Shown piece by piece: positions 11,917 through 17,604 of a stretch of DNA of 24,767 nucleotides. Within the stretch, counting starts at the first letter, position 1. Every line of letters starts with the position of its first letter. A program made the translations under genes and the position numbers. Origin of the DNA: a virus; the IMG/VR virus record IMGVR_UViG_3300009126_000032, positions 1-24,767 of that record. The stretch is one strand, 5' to 3'. The notes under the pieces were generated by a model, which did no database searches, had not been told where the DNA came from, and saw only the letters and a list, made by a program, of their open reading frames with translations.

Positions 11917-12095
11917 GGTCTTTCCCCCAATATATCATCAACTCTTTGTTGAATAAAAATCATTCGTGCTTCATGATCAAATATTTCTAAAGCGTCTGCC
12001 TCGGTACATGCTTTTGTAATAGCTTGTGTCCACTTATCGCCTTGTACTTTTATAAAATTAAGTACCATTTCTGTATAGTTTACTTCGATTGTCAT
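11913..12095 (-). CDS. Hypothetical protein, 60 aa
   Basis: No family recognised. Predicted helical, acidic overall (WTQAITKACTEADALEIFDHEARMIFIQQRVDDIL). It starts 5 nt after the 73-aa gene and overlaps the next gene by 4 nt, so expression as part of the operon is likely despite its size. Confidence 0.55.
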   Translation of the reverse strand: MTIEVNYTEMVLNFIKVQGDKWTQAITKACTEADALEIFDHEARMIFIQQRVDDILGERP

Positions 12096-12100
12096 TTGTT

Positions 12101-12322
12101 TTACCTCTCAAAATGATATGTTCTAGGATTTTCCAATCCATTAATTAATTTAATATTCTTCATGCCCCGCATTTTGAATATGCCCTCAACTAAAAGATTG
12201 TAATCGTTTTGATTATTCAATCTGATAACTAAGGACATATTTTTATGCTGTCGCAGATAGTTTCTAGCATCTTCGACACTTTTAAGATTCAACTTAATGC
12301 CGTAGTGTATAGATTCTATCAT
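12101..12322 (-). CDS. Hypothetical protein, 73 aa
   Basis: No family recognised. The sequence reads as an alternating beta-alpha fold (SVEDARNYLRQ ... MSLVIRLNNQNDYNLLVEGIFKMRG). The start overlaps the DUF932 stop by 4 nt (ATGA), so the two are probably translated in sequence. Confidence 0.6.
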   Translation of the reverse strand: MIESIHYGIKLNLKSVEDARNYLRQHKNMSLVIRLNNQNDYNLLVEGIFKMRGMKNIKLINGLENPRTYHFER

Positions 12323-13284
12323 GCCACCAACTTCAAACTAGGAATCATCTTCTCATTTAAAGTCTTTCTAACTTTGTCAAGCCGATCAATTTGTAATGAT
12401 GCGTAGTTTCCAATAGATGATTTCTTAGTTACAGAACCATGTGTTGCCCATTCAGTCATAGCATTATATAATGCCCACGCTGTACCATCTAATTGTCTAT
12501 TATTGACTATCCAATAATCCCACAATTTAGATAATGTTTTATTTCTAATTACATCTGGTTGATATAAAATTTCAGTTGTATATTTTCCAGAATTTAAATG
12601 CGCATCTACTGTTTTAGCCTTAGATAAATGTGCCAATATAGTCATAGCATCATTGTTTGTTATCTTAGTATCAACCATCTCTTGCCACAATTCAGTTTCT
12701 TGATCGTAGAATCTAACAGCTTCTGATAATTTATCAGCAACACGCTGTAGATTAAGACCTTTAGTGTGTTTAGATTTGTGGATTGCAAAGTTATTAGCAA
12801 ACACTTGCATATTTAAACAGATAAATCTAAAACCGCCGACCTCAACTGTGAATGACCACGAACCATCAAAACTATTTCTTGCTGATATAGTTAATGCTAC
12901 ATCATCATTCTTTCTACCAAGATTAACTCTGTGTTCTGGTAATGTGTAGATACTATATGCTCTAGCACCATCATGAGAACATCTAGTTTCTCTTGTGATC
13001 CCTGTTATATCAAGATCAGACAATTCAATAACATTCTCTGCTGTTTTAAATGCAGTGCTATGTTTAACAGGATTATACCCTGCACCAACCACACTTAATA
13101 CTTGGTTTGTATCTTCACGCACCAATGCTACATGAGAATCTATGCTATCAAAAACACGTTGATACCTTCCGCTTTGTGTTGTATCAAAAAATCCTTTACT
13201 TTGTATATGTAAAGGTTCTTTGCGTACTGAAAAATCAGCGCCGTTATAATTGCCTAGATTTGCTAGGACTTCTGTTCTATTCAT
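12319..13284 (-). CDS. DUF932 family protein
   Basis: The 321-residue protein shows the DUF932 layout: N-terminal RYQRVFDSIDSHVALVRED with VVGAGYNPVKH, central ARAYSIYTLPEHRV / DDVALTISARNSFDGSWSF, then the characteristic FRFICLNMQVFANNF followed by HTKG. A helical part follows, and the Trp-rich LDGTAWALYNAMTEWATHG near the C-terminus. DUF932 proteins are frequent on phages and plasmids and their role is unknown. GGAG lies 9 nt before the ATG. A roughly 200-nt structured, non-coding leader (13285-13492) separates it from the gene upstream; no sigma70-like promoter is visible in that leader, so read-through from the promoter at 14608-14636 is likely. Confidence 0.88.
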   Translation of the reverse strand: MNRTEVLANLGNYNGADFSVRKEPLHIQSKGFFDTTQSGRYQRVFDSIDSHVALVREDTNQVLSVVGAGYNPVKHSTAFKTAENVIELSDLDITGITRETRCSHDGARAYSIYTLPEHRVNLGRKNDDVALTISARNSFDGSWSFTVEVGGFRFICLNMQVFANNFAIHKSKHTKGLNLQRVADKLSEAVRFYDQETELWQEMVDTKITNNDAMTILAHLSKAKTVDAHLNSGKYTTEILYQPDVIRNKTLSKLWDYWIVNNRQLDGTAWALYNAMTEWATHGSVTKKSSIGNYASLQIDRLDKVRKTLNEKMIPSLKLVA

Positions 13285-14970: not shown

Positions 14971-15156
14971 TTATACTGTTATTTTTATACCGCAGTCGAC
15001 ACAAATATATAAGTCATCTTTTTCATATTCTGCTTCGATCCCACAATCATCACATTTTACTGTAGGACTGGCATCAAATAAATCTGGAATATCTCTAATA
15101 TATTCTTGATCGTCTGCATTTAGAAAGGTTTCTAAGTTGTTGATTTCTATAGTCAT
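14971..15156 (-). CDS. Small zinc-ribbon protein, 61 aa
   Basis: The C-terminal half carries two CxxC knuckles, CDDCG and CVDCG, 18 residues apart, typical of a zinc ribbon that binds nucleic acid or protein. The N-terminal half is acidic (NLETFLNADDQEYIRDIPDLFD). Phages use such small proteins to bind host transcription or replication factors, but no specific target can be named. It has its own promoter (15205-15233). Confidence 0.7.
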   Translation of the reverse strand: MTIEINNLETFLNADDQEYIRDIPDLFDASPTVKCDDCGIEAEYEKDDLYICVDCGIKITV

Positions 15157-15204
15157 ATTAATTCCTATGTTGTTTTATTTTGTTCCTTGCGGAAGGTTGC
15201 CCAG

Positions 15205-15233
15205 ATTTTACCAGAAAAGTTTGCGAAAGTCAA
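15205..15233 (-). promoter_or_regulatory. Leftward sigma70 promoter
   Basis: Minus strand: -35 TTGACT (15228-15233), 17-nt spacer, -10 TAAAAT (15205-15210). It drives the zinc-ribbon gene. The leader contains a small hairpin TTCC-GCAA-GGAA with a GNRA-type loop. Confidence 0.82.
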
Positions 15234-15276
15234 GCCCTAGTATAAATTAATTTAATATAAATTAGTGTTAATTTCC

Positions 15277-15339
15277 TGTGGATAAGTGTGTATTCTTGTG
15301 TTAATTTGTTGTGGATAACTCTTTATTTTTTGTGGATAT
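15277..15339. other. DnaA-box cluster, candidate replication origin
   Basis: Three same-orientation boxes TGTGGATAA (15277-15285), TGTGGATAA (15310-15318) and TGTGGATAT (15331-15339) are, on the other strand, TTATCCACA, TTATCCACA and ATATCCACA, the classic DnaA-box sequence. Starts are 33 and 21 nt apart, about three and two helical turns, so all face the same side of the helix. AT-rich DNA flanks them on both sides. Position in the main non-coding region between the leftward and rightward arms supports an origin. Confidence 0.65.
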
Positions 15340-15358
15340 CTTGTGTGTATTATTATTT

Positions 15359-15409
15359 TGCCCTCAATAAGAGGCGGATAAGTTTATTTTATGCCCTCAA
15401 TCAGAGGCG
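15359..15409. repeat. Two iteron-like direct repeats, 33-nt period
   Basis: TGCCCTCAATAAGAGGCG (15359-15376) and TGCCCTCAATCAGAGGCG (15392-15409) differ at one position and start exactly 33 nt apart, the same interval as the first two DnaA boxes. Each contains a CCTC/GAGG mini-palindrome. Both are followed by T-rich DNA. They look like binding sites of an initiator or regulator. Confidence 0.65.
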
Positions 15410-15467
15410 CTTGTATTTATTTTTTATAAATTTTTTGTAAAATTAATAAGAACAAAAAATAAATATG
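15410..15467. other. AT-rich non-coding stretch after the iterons
   Basis: Almost pure A/T with a run of TTTTTTATAAATTTTTTG-type sequence. No gene, promoter or hairpin of note is visible. It could be the DNA-unwinding element of the neighbouring DnaA-box/iteron cluster. Together with the features at 15157-15646 it accounts for that 490-nt gene-free region. Confidence 0.4.
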
Positions 15468-15578
15468 ATCCCCTATGGTCTCCAAAAAATTCAGAAGAAT
15501 TAAGAAGAACTGTTGAGACCTGGCTTTGCCAGTTCGAAACAGACAACAGAATTTTTTATCAAATCGCTAGTGAGATGA
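15468..15578 (-). repeat. Mirror cassette, left copy: conserved flanks around a 76-nt hairpin core
   Basis: ATCCCCTATGGTCTCC (15468-15483) and CAAATCGCTAGTGAGATGA (15560-15578) bracket exactly 76 nt. Both flanks recur inverted at 16792-16903, around another 76-nt core of unrelated sequence. Here the core folds from AAAAAATTC (15484-15492) plus TGTTG (15511-15515) against CAACAGAATTTTTT (15544-15557), with 18 unpaired nt in the left arm and an inner CTGGC/GCCAG stem (15520-15524, 15528-15532). Read in the same orientation as the right copy, this copy is on the minus strand. No reading frame explains it. Confidence 0.75.
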
Positions 15579-15583
15579 AAAAC

Positions 15584-15635
15584 AGGAAAAAAATAAAAAA
15601 AATCCCAAACTAAACACGAAGTCTAGTCTGGGATT
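15584..15635 (-). terminator. Rho-independent terminator of the 15647-16292 gene pair
   Basis: On the minus strand the stem AATCCCAGACTA / TAGTTTGGGATT (15624-15635 with 15601-15612, 11 of 12 paired, loop of 11) is followed at once by a T-rich run (complement of 15584-15600, T8-A-T7). It starts 12 nt after the stop codon of the 131-aa gene. Confidence 0.88.
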
Positions 15636-15646
15636 CTTATCATTCG

Positions 15647-16042
15647 CTAAGCCTTATTACGATTAGCGTAGTAGGTATTAACTGAATCGAGAAAACCTTT
15701 GACAAACTTAAGATCAAAAGCTTGATTGGTTTTCGCATTATCAATTAATTTACTAACCGCGCCTCGATTCAGACTCTGATCAACACTAAAAGTGTTTAAG
15801 AGATGAATAGCGAATGATGCAGGTCTGCGGTTCGCGCCTGCAAACCAAGGGAAATCACTGGTTTTGGCACTTTGTATAAATTCGTGCCTTTTAAGGATTT
15901 TCGCCTTAAGGATTTCCCTGTACAAATAAATCAAATATTTACATTGATTCATTGTTGGTTCTTCTTTCTCAGAACTGGCGAAAATCGATTCGTGAACCGA
16001 ACCGCTAGCCTGAGTCTTAGTTTTACTGGATGATTTTGTCAT
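15647..16042 (-). CDS. Hypothetical protein, 131 aa
   Basis: No family recognised. A Ser/Thr/Lys-rich, probably disordered N-terminus (TKSSSKTKTQASGS) is followed by a mostly helical domain (CKYLIYLYREILKAKILKRHEFIQ ... ASFAIHLLNTFSVDQSL ... GAVSKLIDNAKTN ... FLDSVNTYYANRNK). It overlaps the 89-aa gene by 20 nt and is followed by a strong terminator, so the pair forms a closed two-gene transcription unit. As the first unit of the leftward arm it may be an early gene acting on the host; that is inference. Confidence 0.65.
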   Translation of the reverse strand: MTKSSSKTKTQASGSVHESIFASSEKEEPTMNQCKYLIYLYREILKAKILKRHEFIQSAKTSDFPWFAGANRRPASFAIHLLNTFSVDQSLNRGAVSKLIDNAKTNQAFDLKFVKGFLDSVNTYYANRNKA

Positions 16043-16292
16043 CAGTACTACTCCTAGTTTGAAACTCTCGATTAAGAGCTACCTGCCTATTAATAAATGT
16101 TTCATCTTCAGTAGACAGACCTGATGACAAAACTCCAAGTAAAACATCTTCGCGCGATAACATAGACTCACTCGATTTTAGATGAGCAAAATGCCCAACT
16201 AAAAACTCGTATGCGTCTGCTAGGTCAAGAAACCTAGCGACTAAGTTATCGGCGAAGATGAAATGAATTTCAATATTATTTTTAATGCTCAT
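16023..16292 (-). CDS. Hypothetical protein, 89 aa, first gene of the leftward arm
   Basis: No family recognised. The N-terminal half looks like a small alpha/beta domain (NIEIHFIFADNLVARFLDLADAYEFLVGHFAHL); the rest is polar and helical (SREDVLLGVLSSGLSTEDETFINRQVALNREF). AAGGAG lies 8 nt before the ATG. It is placed directly downstream of the leftward promoter at 16330-16358, at the divergence point of the two transcription arms. Confidence 0.7.
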   Translation of the reverse strand: MSIKNNIEIHFIFADNLVARFLDLADAYEFLVGHFAHLKSSESMLSREDVLLGVLSSGLSTEDETFINRQVALNREFQTRSSTDDKIIQ

Positions 16293-16329
16293 ATTTATTA
16301 CTCCTTATATGACATGAATATTACCCTTA

Positions 16330-16358
16330 CCCTAACACAAAAATTTGTAAGCTGTCAA
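16330..16358 (-). promoter_or_regulatory. Leftward promoter of the first early unit (weak -10)
   Basis: Minus strand: perfect -35 TTGACA (16353-16358), 17-nt spacer, poor -10 TTAGGG (16330-16335) or TAGGGT one base on. The -35 and spacer are an inverted copy of those of the rightward promoter at 16456-16485, so both probably answer to the same regulator. The weak -10 suggests dependence on an activator, or escape only under certain conditions. Confidence 0.55.
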
Positions 16359-16480
16359 GTTTTTTAATTGATTTAAAATGCGCTTTGCGCCGTGTCTATT
16401 TTTAAATCATTACTTAAAAAACGTATAATTTTCGTTGCCTTGCAACTATAAATTATTGACAGCTTACTATAAATTTTTGT
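16337..16480. repeat. Inverted repeat carrying the two divergent promoters
   Basis: GTAAGCTGTCAA (16347-16358) and TTGACAGCTTAC (16456-16467) are perfect inverted copies. Beyond them ACAAAAATTT (16337-16346) and AAATTTTTGT (16471-16480) continue the match after a 3-nt insertion in the right copy. Each half contains a -35 box. Between them lies a smaller hairpin, GATTTAAAA/TTTTAAATC (16370-16378, 16400-16408), with GCGC-TTT-GCGC inside. This is a typical layout for an operator shared by divergent promoters. Confidence 0.7.
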
Positions 16481-16485
16481 ATCAT
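16456..16485 (+). promoter_or_regulatory. Rightward sigma70 promoter facing the hairpin array
   Basis: TTGACA (16456-16461), 18-nt spacer, TATCAT (16480-16485). The predicted start, about 16492, coincides with the first base of the 16491-16681 foldback. No protein gene follows before the possible 30-aa frame at 16948, so its first product is probably a structured RNA or a very long leader for terS. Confidence 0.7.
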
Positions 16486-16490
16486 GATAT

Positions 16491-16681
16491 GTTTGTCAAT
16501 TCTATCCTTAACAAATCTTCACAATTCAAATTCCCAAATGGAATTTGTAGTATTTAAATAATATCAGAAAGCGTATGCGTCCATTGCGTAGATCAGGTTC
16601 TTCTGTCTTACCGTTAAGATCTTTGCAATGGTTCTGATATTTTATTAAATACTGTGAAGAACTGTTAAGGATTTGACAAAC
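16491..16681 (+). ncRNA. 191-nt branched foldback (candidate structured RNA)
   Basis: The outer arms GTTTGTCAA (16491-16499) and TTGACAAAC (16673-16681) pair perfectly and continue through ATCCTTAACA/TGTTAAGGAT and TCTTCACA/TGTGAAGA after a 4-nt bulge in the left arm. A side hairpin CAAATTCC/GGAATTTG (16527-16534, 16540-16547) follows. An inner stem runs from AGTATTTAA...ATATCAGAA (16549-16569) to 16632-16653, then CCATTGC/GCAATGG (16581-16587, 16625-16631) and AGATC/GATCT (16590-16594, 16618-16622). No frame is present. Whether it acts as RNA or as a DNA cruciform is open. Confidence 0.6.
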
Positions 16682-16693
16682 AAATATAGAAAC

Positions 16694-16779
16694 AAAACCC
16701 TACAAAATAATAATACTTTGTAAACTTCATATCTCTCATCAACTCCAAGAACAGTTTACAAAGTATTTTGTAGGGTTTT
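16694..16779. other. 27-bp bulged hairpin
   Basis: The left arm is AAAACCCTACAAAA (16694-16707), a 6-nt insertion TAATAA (16708-16713), and TACTTTGTAAACT (16714-16726). The right arm 16753-16779 pairs with both parts without mismatch; the loop is 26 nt. A-runs and T-runs at the base (AAAACCC ... GGGTTTT) are compatible with a bidirectional terminator, but the loop and the single-sided bulge are unusual for one. Confidence 0.65.
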
Positions 16780-16791
16780 ATAACTTATAAT

Positions 16792-16903
16792 TCATCTCAA
16801 CTAGCGATTTGACTAGGCACTTCATAGTCTTGGAAGATCTTTGAAGGGATTATGCAGAACCTTCAAAGACTATGAAGTACCTAGGCAGGAGACCATAGGG
16901 GAT
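16792..16903 (+). repeat. Mirror cassette, right copy: conserved flanks around a 76-nt hairpin core
   Basis: TCATCTCAACTAGCGATTTG (16792-16811) and GGAGACCATAGGGGAT (16888-16903) are inverted copies of the flanks at 15560-15578 (one base shorter) and 15468-15483 (identical). The 76-nt core forms a 25-bp stem: CTAGGCACTTCATAGTC (16813-16829) and TTTGAAGG (16840-16847) against 16860-16884. There is one mismatch and a 10-nt bulge TTGGAAGATC (16830-16839) in the left arm. The core sequence is unrelated to that of the left copy although length and architecture match. Confidence 0.75.
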
Positions 16904-16947
16904 ACATGGGTATATATGTAATGAACGTACAAAATTATAGGATTTAT

Positions 16948-17040
16948 ATGTCAACCAGATCCCGCCGACAACAAAGACTTGCCATCAACGAAGAACTATA
17001 TAGCTTCTATGCGCTATATAGCTTGCGTAAAAGGGGGTAG
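16948..17040 (+). CDS. Possible 30-aa basic micro-protein upstream of terS
   Basis: The ATG-TAG frame of 31 codons encodes a peptide beginning MSTRSRRQQRLAINEELYS and ending in RKRG. AGGA lies 6 nt before the ATG. The frame includes the 11-nt direct repeat CTATATAGCTT (16996-17006 and 17014-17024), whose halves also form a 9-bp hairpin (16996-17004, 17013-17021). It would be read from the promoter at 16456-16485. It is the only ATG frame of reasonable size I see in the 16293-17172 non-coding region, which otherwise holds promoters, hairpins and the G-rich motif. Confidence 0.35.
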   Translation: MSTRSRRQQRLAINEELYSFYALYSLRKRG

Positions 17041-17063
17041 ATTGGGTGGGGGGGAGATAGGGG
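17033..17063 (+). other. G-quadruplex motif upstream of terS
   Basis: Four G-runs (5, 3, 7 and 4 G) are separated by loops of 6, 1 and 5 nt, fulfilling the standard G3+N1-7 pattern in an otherwise AT-rich genome. It lies about 110 nt before terS, where packaging-initiation sites are often found, and just beyond the start point of the leftward promoter 17087-17115. Confidence 0.6.
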
Positions 17064-17086
17064 TTTACCGACTGGCGCCTAAAGCT

Positions 17087-17115
17087 ATTTTACACTTGTA
17101 TTTCAGTTTTGTCAA
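17087..17115 (-). promoter_or_regulatory. Leftward sigma70 promoter reading into the hairpin region
   Basis: Minus strand: TTGACA (17110-17115), 17-nt spacer, TAAAAT (17087-17092). Transcription would start near 17080 and run antisense through the G-rich motif and all hairpins toward the genes at 16292. Its -35 lies in TTTGTCAAGT (17108-17117), a perfect inverted copy of ACTTGACAAA (17137-17146) of the terS promoter. Confidence 0.7.
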
Positions 17116-17138
17116 GTATTATTTAATTTATTTTTAAC

Positions 17139-17166
17139 TTGACAAATCCCCAAACAGGTGTATACT
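17139..17166 (+). promoter_or_regulatory. Rightward sigma70 promoter of terS, start codon at the predicted transcript start
   Basis: TTGACA (17139-17144), 16-nt spacer, TATACT (17161-17166). The terS ATG at 17173 is 7 nt after the -10, so the mRNA from this promoter should have no or almost no leader. Confidence 0.8.
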
Positions 17167-17172
17167 AGATCT

Positions 17173-17604
17173 ATGAACCAATTATCCACACTAAATCAAA
17201 CAGATAAGCGTAAGTTGTCTGAAAAACAACAATCTTTCCTTGATAATCTCATAGAAACCAAGGGAGATGCTAAGTTAGCGGCGTCATTGGCGGGATATAA
17301 AAGTTCTCACTACCATTTATTGAAGAGCTTGAAGCAAGAAGTATTGGATATAACCCAAGAAATACTCGCGCAGTCGGCGCCTAAAGCAGCATTCAAACTC
17401 TTGGAGATCATGGAGTCTAATAGACCTATCCCACAAGCCAGCAATAAGCTCCAAGCAGCTCAATCGGTCTTGGATCGGGTGGGTGTTGTTAAGAGTGAGC
17501 GCCTGGATATCAATCATAGTGGTGGAGGCGGTATATTCTTACTACCTGAGAAGAGAGTTATAGAGGCAGAAACAGTAGAAATAGAAGATAATGATGGAGC
17601 ATGA
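17173..17604 (+). CDS. terS: Terminase small subunit
   Basis: The 143-residue protein recognises the packaging site and loads the large subunit. It has the N-terminal helix-turn-helix pattern of TerS (SEKQQSFLDNLIETKGDAKLAASLAGYKSS), a central oligomerisation part (APKAAFKLLEIMES ... KLQAAQSVLDRVGVVKSE) and an acidic C-terminus (AETVEIEDNDGA). A frame starting at the GTG at 17158 would place the -10 box inside the gene, so I chose ATG 17173. A perfect DnaA box TTATCCACA (17182-17190) lies in its first codons. It is followed by small genes, and TerL comes 2.1 kb later. Confidence 0.85.
   Translation: MNQLSTLNQTDKRKLSEKQQSFLDNLIETKGDAKLAASLAGYKSSHYHLLKSLKQEVLDITQEILAQSAPKAAFKLLEIMESNRPIPQASNKLQAAQSVLDRVGVVKSERLDINHSGGGGIFLLPEKRVIEAETVEIEDNDGA

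Follow-up and report, generated by a model that had tools for sequence, protein, structure and literature searches.

We asked what two mirror-image repeats signify in a virus genome fragment from IMG/VR (record IMGVR_UViG_3300009126_000032; the whole 24,767-nt stretch analysed is called the window). The preliminary description of this DNA had read them as the ends of one unit present twice in opposite orientation, with conserved flanks around exchangeable hairpin cores. The repeats themselves are real: ATCCCCTATGGTCTCC at 15468-15483 recurs as its exact inverse at 16888-16903, and a second inverted pair, with one base extra, joins 15559-15579 and 16791-16812. Allowing up to three mismatches, ATCCCCTATGGTCTCC matches the window at these two places only (0.13 expected; at least two matches in 1 of 100 shuffles). 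We found, however, that the flanks belong to a single stem, of which they form the two sides and which closes a module of ~1.4-1.45 kb (15464-16908); they are not two copies of a unit, and are mutually inverse because they pair with each other. The closing parts of the module are as follows.

15464-15483: left side of closing stem S1, containing the 16-nt flank; pairs with 16888-16908
15484-15558: left side hairpin (the first core of the preliminary description); a weak fold
15559-15579: left side of closing stem S2; pairs with 16791-16812
16791-16812: right side of closing stem S2; pairs with 15559-15579
16813-16887: right side hairpin (the second core); a strong fold
16888-16908: right side of closing stem S1; pairs with 15464-15483

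The equal spacing of the flanks holds in this phage, where both spacers measure 76 nt with the borders first proposed (75 nt if the pairing is extended inwards by one pair), and it fails as a rule: the side hairpins are 28 and 87 nt long in the related locus L012 and 15 and 63 nt in L013, so a fixed core length falls away. In both relatives the matching two positions pair, but with different sequences. That both cores fold into hairpins was correct for the right one, which together with its flanks reaches a z of -6.4 on the minus strand and -3.7 on the plus strand (0 of 200 shuffles equally good), whereas the left one folds weakly (z -1.4 on minus, with 16 of 200 shuffles equally good, and -1.9 on plus, with 7 of 200). 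In the window's subgroup, the closing stems with their side hairpins form a four-way junction.

A pair of cassettes, mobile or exchangeable, whose ends are conserved and whose cores have been swapped would account for the exactly inverted flanks and for the equal spacing in this phage. A DNA search, however, found the exact 16-mer only in a near-identical phage, its two other matches being chance hits within unrelated sequence, and the flanks of the relatives differ in sequence while remaining paired within each phage, as their core lengths differ too. A second 16-mer, from the right end, gave matches in six contigs, namely those of the near-identical phage, L012 and L013, and L132-L134; these last three were rejected as relatives since their sequence proved unrelated on reading. 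One query (A3) of host and prophage genomes gave 43 pattern matches with no relative among them. No recombinase or transposase was found among the 10 window proteins scanned against PHROGs (five were scanned against Pfam), most of the genome lying outside the 24.8-kb record. The cassette reading is refuted in its main point by L012 and L013, and we regard it as extremely improbable. Nothing in the analysis supports a DNA element with a swapped core, and a family of small RNAs does not fit a selected structure of more than 1 kb instead of a 76-nt hairpin.

Taken alone, the window shows long-range pairing of only moderate significance: over 2,007 nt the nested chain scores 57 (z 2.5), whereas the best of 100 shuffles reached 58. 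The chain z is 3.5 for 15001-17000, the sole segment above 3 among 23 two-kb segments of the window, and local folding is far stronger in the module (mean z -4.0/-5.0, n=10) than elsewhere (-0.7/-0.7, n=178). The pairing becomes secure because relatives show it too, and we consider it almost certain that 15464-16908 is one fold-back element.

From its sequence context, the module sits between DnaA-like boxes and the terminase small subunit gene terS, and it holds two small minus-strand genes, ORF-A and ORF-B. DNA polymerase, helicase and RNR are also encoded in the window. The features of the region are listed here.

15205-15233, minus: predicted sigma70-like promoter of the left minus-strand gene block (TTGACT-17-TAAAAT, consensus 10/12)
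15277-15339, minus: three DnaA-like boxes, TGTGGATAA at 15277-15285 and 15310-15318 and TGTGGATAT at 15331-15339
15360-15376 and 15393-15409, plus: two iteron-like repeats, GCCCTCAATNAGAGGCG
15592-15635, minus: intrinsic-terminator-like hairpin (15601-15635) with T run, after ORF-B
15647-16042, minus: ORF-B, 131 aa, no known family, homologues in relatives
16023-16292, minus: ORF-A, 89 aa, no known family, homologues in relatives
16490-16682: large branched hairpin predicted in the non-coding right arm
16694-16779: near-perfect hairpin of 16 + 15 exact pairs, containing TTTGTAAACT
16884-16894, plus: GGCAGGAGACC, family-wide motif at the base of the rod
17087-17115, minus: predicted leftward sigma70-like promoter reading into the module (consensus 11/12)
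17139-17166, plus: predicted rightward sigma70-like promoter of terS (consensus 11/12)
17173-17604, plus: terS, the anchor for finding relatives

We take TGTGGATAA and TGTGGATAT to be DnaA-like boxes, and 15277-15339 is likely the replication origin. A DnaA-box-like array is present in L056, L057, L063 and L065, and 15 of 28 relatives have words of the TTATCCAC type to the left of the ORF-B stop; for the iteron-like repeats, GCCCTCAA was found in 13 of 28. The right arms of relatives often contain words of the TTTGTAAACT family, and the rod-base motif was matched loosely in 23 of 30 non-redundant relatives and exactly, as AGGAGACCA, in 19 of them.

Related marine phages carry nested inverted repeats at the same place, phage-specific in sequence and complementary within each phage, so that the preliminary description was right in seeing conservation here as one of structure and not of sequence. 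Of 71 relatives, 57 have a long-range foldback (z>3) upstream of terS; the controls gave one in 64 downstream regions and none in 43 regions at 2-4 kb upstream. The chain test took 71 of 92 locus ids: loci with less than 900 nt upstream of terS were excluded, as were second contig records and the near-copy of the window (L053, L054, L010, L011), and L090 and L092 (931 and 900 nt) also lie outside it. In group II relatives the pairing spans much or most of the module, and the gene-bearing left arm, with ORF-A and ORF-B on the minus strand, pairs over hundreds of nucleotides with a non-coding right arm. The best cases are unbranched rods; L114, with 1,290 nt of which 83% are paired, folds at -637 kcal/mol on the plus strand, and a comparison of its strands gave -603 for plus and -378 for minus. 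A rod-like structure of ~1 kb is thus a feature of group II (best in L114 and L017), and the window shows it only in its closing stems. The cultured phages HTVC115P, HTVC103P and HTVC033P have no foldback upstream of terS (z 0.2, 0.3 and -1.2), and in the cultured HMO-2011, CRP-235 and CRP-1 the matching place is packed with genes, as read from gene layout.

Next, we compared loci for changes at paired columns. Double changes restored pairing in 298 of 407 cases, where one third is expected (25 overlapping locus pairs read both ways, so that the counts are non-independent). Where the partner was unchanged, 131 changes led to G.T on the plus strand versus 54 to A.C. Relative to unpaired columns, the rate of G.T was 0.42 and 0.75 in the left and right arm, that of A.C 0.17 and 0.24, and that of transversions 0.25 and 0.41, for 13 chosen locus pairs of at least 73% identity (L065 and L101 each used twice). 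G.T exceeded A.C in 11 of these 13 pairs and the reverse held in two; L058 to L067 goes the opposite way (6/8). From L101 to L114 the G.T/A.C counts were 42/8 at paired columns, 11/10 at unpaired columns and 13/15 in the right flank; the excess is restricted to paired columns, and a regional mutation bias is therefore not its source there. Across eight mismatch classes, tolerance correlates with stability on the plus strand (Pearson correlation 0.85 with RNA and 0.83 with DNA energies) and inversely with stability on the minus strand (-0.68 and -0.71). The mismatch columns are G-rich on plus (GC skew 0.26 and 0.32 in the two arms, against -0.06 and 0.09 for the arms overall), and at fixed base composition G.T is not over-represented among mismatches (187 vs 191 +/- 10). 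An early alignment-free count had given mainly transversions and little asymmetry (13, 7, 50); strand-blind pairing at the DNA level was dropped after the aligned mismatch and change counts.

The plus strand also folds better in 26 of 32 loci, a figure for which composition accounts in part. With eight shuffles each, an extra plus advantage persists in L114, L099, L078 and L017 and is slightly reversed in L101, the window, L013 and L087. The window's group shows no plus preference, the MFE being lower on the minus strand for the window, L012, L013 and L087. Collectively, compensation and plus-strand mismatch tolerance in group II suggest that a single-stranded plus molecule, probably RNA, is under selection in the relatives. 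Plus-strand-specific selection in group II is highly probable, and the conservation of the fold despite sequence change suggests a giant structured RNA (or single-stranded DNA) of a kind hitherto undescribed.

Some of these observations are also what an inverted duplicate of the ORF-A/ORF-B operon would leave as it decays, with similarity maintained by gene conversion or template switching and a fold without function. Gene conversion would likewise produce compensatory changes, the plus strand of the right arm reads as a broken copy of the genes in sense orientation, a plus-strand ORF of L069 (3594-3884) repeats pieces of ORF-B, and L084 and L071 lack a rod and have the genes on the opposite strand. 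Neutral decay and conversion are strand-blind, yet G.T is favoured over A.C on plus and at paired columns only; moreover, non-coding hairpins between the paired blocks and a wholly structured module would be unexpected. Accordingly, we judge the duplication quite unlikely.

Whether the plus molecule acts as RNA or as DNA is a closer question, and RNA appears somewhat the more probable of the two. RNA and DNA mismatch energies fit the tolerance equally, which leaves room for a plus-strand ssDNA whose rod would function at the origin in single-strand initiation or restart, or as a structure that binds protein. Since the module lies right of the DnaA-box origin, plus would be the lagging-strand template for a rightward fork. 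The adjoining DnaA-like boxes at a turn of gene direction agree with such a role, as do a G.G tolerance (0.48) nearly that of G.T (0.58) and the promoters, no consistent rightward one having been found left of the rod in the loci examined (a perfect one only in L122). However, A.G tolerance is only 0.31, though DNA energies rank A.G level with G.T, and 63 of the 534 pairs of the L114 plus fold are G.U, which is RNA-like. Known single-strand initiation hairpins are far shorter, a further point against ssDNA, and we consider this explanation rather unlikely.

The promoters bear on the RNA reading as well. An equivalent of the leftward promoter, matching 11-12 of 12 consensus positions, was present in 20 of 20 loci examined, and with no consistent rightward one the minus transcript is therefore the obvious one, which speaks against a plus RNA. 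Under this alternative the minus mRNA would itself be the functional rod, its long 5' leader pairing with its own coding region and locking ORF-A/ORF-B translation until opened. The leader is conserved, all Watson-Crick pairs exist on the minus strand too, and the minus fold is slightly better in the window's group. Against it, the group II changes giving G.U on minus are the second least tolerated class, L114 folds far worse on that strand, and the best-kept pairs of the window's group fall outside the terminated mRNA, the left sides of S1 and S2 lying beyond the ORF-B terminator-like hairpin when read on minus. This makes a minus-strand rod very unlikely.

We therefore lean, if only slightly, towards the window module being the local form of a giant rod fold-back that occurs in many uncultured marine phages between a DnaA-box origin and terS, with the plus RNA as the folded molecule. 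The selected molecule would be a plus transcript of ~1.2-1.5 kb running from the origin side to terS, folding as a near-double-stranded rod in group II or, in the window's group, as an array of hairpins that a four-way junction closes. The strong leftward promoter would yield the ORF-A/ORF-B mRNA from the minus strand; the plus transcript, made at another time, would be antisense to both genes and would at once fold on itself into a stable dsRNA-like body. The folded RNA could then serve as leader or scaffold of the terS-side operon while ORF-A and ORF-B are shut off. We offer this antisense and leader role tentatively and think it rather improbable as it stands.

Several known systems resemble the element in part. 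Divergent gene blocks with mirror-image structured elements near promoters occur in the HK022 put and lambda nut leaders, as in the phage module, but here the mirror-image parts pair mutually and do not form two separate leader signals. Terminal repeats of MITEs and invertible segments are likewise inverted, identical within and different between genomes, and placed around small genes. In the phage element, by contrast, group II pairing continues inside the flanked genes, mismatch tolerance is strand-specific, no orientation variant of the same phage was seen, and the position is always upstream of terS, the loci having been found via terS. The very large structured phage RNAs GOLLD and ROOL are of unknown function according to one report (PMC12286853); they are highly branched, conserved in sequence, represented in Rfam and often near tRNA islands, whereas the phage element is a rod or hairpin array, hardly conserved in sequence, beside terS and the origin. 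Their Rfam covariance models matched neither the window nor L114.

No tRNA, tmRNA or Rfam family, ribozymes included, was matched in the window at gathering score. The 18 and 5 weak Rfam matches at E<=5 in window 15100-17300 and L114 1-2000 are hairpin look-alikes, mostly to microRNA models, far below cut-offs and with no ribozyme among them. In the literature within our search's reach, which left most subscription papers outside, we found no description of such an element.

The closest likeness is to Obelisks, described in two reports as ~1 kb RNAs with a rod-like fold (PMC13096302; PMC11922315), and to viroid-like and delta-virus-like rods: a near-unbranched rod of ~1-1.7 kb with coding along one side. 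Such circular RNAs have no DNA counterpart, whereas the phage rod has a fixed place in dsDNA phage genomes, which encode it once, all loci lying in DNA phage contigs with terS. Its two small proteins look unrelated (60-138 aa, against about 200 aa for Oblin-1), the selected strand is antisense to the genes, no ribozyme was seen in the window or L114, and there was no sign of circularity or RNA replication. It is conceivable, though on balance doubtful, that dsDNA phages encode an HDV- or Obelisk-like rod RNA of 1.2-1.5 kb in which one arm is antisense to the operon and the other its pairing-only ghost copy; it might even be that the phages have domesticated a rod-RNA replicon and carry it at their origin.

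If the preferred reading of a folded plus RNA is true, tens of marine phage lineages carry among the longest near-continuous intramolecular foldbacks so far known outside RNA replicons, with two protein genes and a base-paired partner arm held together by evolution, and rod-shaped RNA agents gain a DNA-encoded counterpart. An unstudied structured nucleic acid would then lie at the junction of phage origin and packaging gene; were it ssDNA, its size would still be unusually large for a structure at an origin. Existing strand-specific marine metatranscriptomes offer a ready test of the reading.

The two genes go with the rod. Both ORFs lie on the minus strand in 55 of 57 rod loci as against 0 of 14 rod-less loci, and on the plus strand only in L071 and L084. 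Compared with L012, dN/dS is 0.20 for ORF-B and 0.57 for ORF-A. No Pfam or PHROG family was matched by more than 3 of 32 ORF-A/ORF-B members; the best Pfam match (HEAT_HEATR1, E 0.0017, one of 32 ORF-B members) and the best PHROG matches (E 0.0075 and 0.0098, families without assigned function) were taken as noise. ORF-B has no match in cultured phages, and Foldseek gave neither protein a match at E<=0.001. ORF-B is predicted to fold into five helices and ORF-A as bbaba, the ORF-A model aligning best with two designed proteins, Top7 (Z 6.4 and rmsd 1.9, with 59 aligned) and NF2 (Z 6.3), a resemblance that may reflect only a common arrangement.

This virus contig of 24,767 bases carries replication genes on the minus strand at its left side (DNA polymerase, primase/helicase and ribonucleotide reductase) and terS, terL and portal on the plus strand at its right. 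Its terS shares 52-53% identity with those of Pelagibacter phages HTVC115P, HTVC103P and HTVC104P, and its portal gene shares 75% DNA identity with HTVC103P across 614 bases. At the switch of gene direction, immediately left of terS, sits a fold-back module with the following parts:

15464-15483 and 16888-16908: the two strands of the outer closing stem (S1)
15559-15579 and 16791-16812: the two strands of the inner closing stem (S2)
15647-16042, minus strand: ORF-B, 131 aa
16023-16292, minus strand: ORF-A, 89 aa

The preliminary description read the ends of this module as two mirror-image cassettes, each with conserved flanks around a hairpin core of fixed length. Both inverted flank pairs are indeed present in the window, exact or near-exact; of the hairpin cores, the right one is strong and the left one only weak. 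A search for close terS genes gave 14 contigs, and in most of them nested reverse-complementary blocks form a chain over 1-1.5 kb upstream of terS. In the nearest relatives, L012 and L013, the positions of S1 and S2 match those in the window. The S2 sequence differs in each of the three, with 21 pairs and one bulge in the window, 19/19 pairs in L012 and 42/43 in L013, and the side hairpins separating the two stems are 76/76 nt long (75/75 when one extra pair is counted), 28/87 and 15/63 nt, respectively, so that the fixed 76-nt core length does not hold. Stems at the same places with different S2 sequences and hairpin lengths argue, from sequence comparison, that the flanks are the two sides of one stem rather than two cassettes, and that each core forms a side hairpin at a four-way junction.

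The module (15.5-16.9 kb) is unusually structured, with a mean z of -4.0 on plus and -5.0 on minus (250-nt windows, n=10) versus -0.7 on either strand outside it (n=178), and the folding energy of the whole lies 189 kcal/mol (plus) and 212 kcal/mol (minus) lower than the average over 8 dinucleotide-shuffled versions. Further single 250-nt windows at z < -3.5 were found at 876, 4126, 8751, 12001-12126, 14001, 21501 and 24126. A second local structured block, at 12001-12375, lies amid small minus-strand genes (minus-strand z -4.6 and -6.2).

Next we scored nested reverse-complementary blocks against dinucleotide shuffles in 71 loci that have 900 nt or more upstream of terS, drawn from a wider terS search and the close-terS set. 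The chain exceeded z=3 in 57/71 upstream regions and z=7 in 48/71, with a maximum of 31.9 in L101; these loci are not independent, and 30 are left once similar rods are removed (z of at least 6 being required there). The same test gave z>3 in 1/64 downstream regions, in 0/43 regions at 2-4 kb upstream, and in 1/23 segments along the window, that segment being the module. Almost the entire module folds into a single rod in L017, L021, L101 and L114.

The left arm of the rod holds, all on minus, a terminator-like hairpin, ORF-B and ORF-A. The right arm is without a conserved gene and, read on plus, is a broken sense copy of ORF-A/ORF-B with inserted hairpins and bulges. The motif GGCAGGAGACCA, the core of the 16-nt flank, stands at the right base of the rod in 23/30 loci (loose pattern), and a similar word is found also in the rod-less locus L016. 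The sequence left of the rod carries DnaA-like boxes and iterons: the window (15277-15409) and L056 (2200-2340) show DnaA-like boxes, AAGGTACA-type iterons (L056 and relatives) and GCCCTCAA repeats, and these regions are probably the phage replication origin. Between rod and terS is a divergent promoter-like pair, the leftward member of which matches 11-12 of 12 consensus positions in all 20 loci examined. Across nine relatives, strong conservation is also seen in the leader that follows the leftward promoter (e.g. L056 3780-3960, window 16909-17110), which could be a packaging signal or a structured RNA in its own right.

Both ORFs are under purifying selection (dN/dS 0.05-0.43 for ORF-B and 0 to 0.60 for ORF-A, 10 comparisons each), and both lie on minus in 55/57 rod loci, the exceptions being L125 (cut, ORF-A only) and L089 (neither). 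Among rod-less loci, 12/14 are without the ORFs. The other two, L084 (2970-3475, ORF-A and ORF-B) and L071 (2900-3196, ORF-B), carry them on plus, in the direction of terS, with no rod detected; therefore these genes can exist without the fold-back. Structures were predicted with high confidence for ORF-A (pLDDT 94.4) and good confidence for ORF-B (89.1), and searches with them gave no significant match for either. The ORF-A family has a predicted bbaba fold (L078 2803-2985; window 16023-16292), whose nearest solved structures are the de novo designed proteins Top7 and NF2; comparison of the L078 model found no natural relatives. ORF-A and ORF-B are two new protein families accompanying the rod.

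We then examined selection on pairing. Between related loci, 298/407 double changes at paired columns retain Watson-Crick pairing, a count that rests on overlapping locus comparisons. Among single changes, the tolerance of G.T on plus is about three times that of A.C (0.75 vs 0.24 as relative rates in the non-coding arm and 0.42 vs 0.17 in the coding arm), with 131 G.T vs 54 A.C events and G.T ahead in 11/13 locus pairs. From L101 to L114, the most extreme of nine comparisons, G.T/A.C is 42/8 at paired sites vs 26/26 at all other sites (Fisher p 0.0003); L058 to L067 runs the opposite way (6/8). Furthermore, tolerance across the eight mismatch classes correlates with plus-strand stability (0.85 with RNA, 0.83 with DNA parameters), and inversely on minus. 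On the other side, G.T enrichment among mismatches is absent once mismatch-column composition is fixed, and the better plus than minus fold of 26/32 loci comes partly from base composition: of eight loci compared with their shuffles, four keep an extra plus advantage and four, L101 and the window among them, show a slight reversal. Taken for and against, these results make plus-strand selection likely in group II, the relatives that pair through much or most of the module, and leave it unproven in the window's own group of closing stems and side hairpins. The related rods of L101 (2303-3644) and L114 (329-1498), one near-all Watson-Crick and the other with many plus-strand G.U pairs, look like a lineage shifting pairs to wobble with the fold kept.

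The selected molecule may be RNA, as favoured by heavy G.U use in L114 (63/534 pairs) and L099 (74/668) and by the poor tolerance of A.G, or single-stranded DNA, as favoured by the rod adjoining the origin and by the finding of no consistent rightward promoter; the thermodynamic fits do not separate the two. Alongside the observed genes, promoter-like sequences, fold-back and plus-strand mismatch signature, we infer two transcripts, their timing and their roles: the strong leftward promoter would drive ORF-A/ORF-B expression on minus, and plus transcription from the origin side would give a self-folded rod, antisense to ORF-A/ORF-B and running into the terS operon. No published description of such an element was found in the literature searched. 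GOLLD and ROOL resemble it in size class and phage setting, but its topology is that of a rod and neither the window nor L114 matched their models; its fold is like that of Obelisks, viroids and delta agents, whereas the rod described here is encoded in DNA phages.
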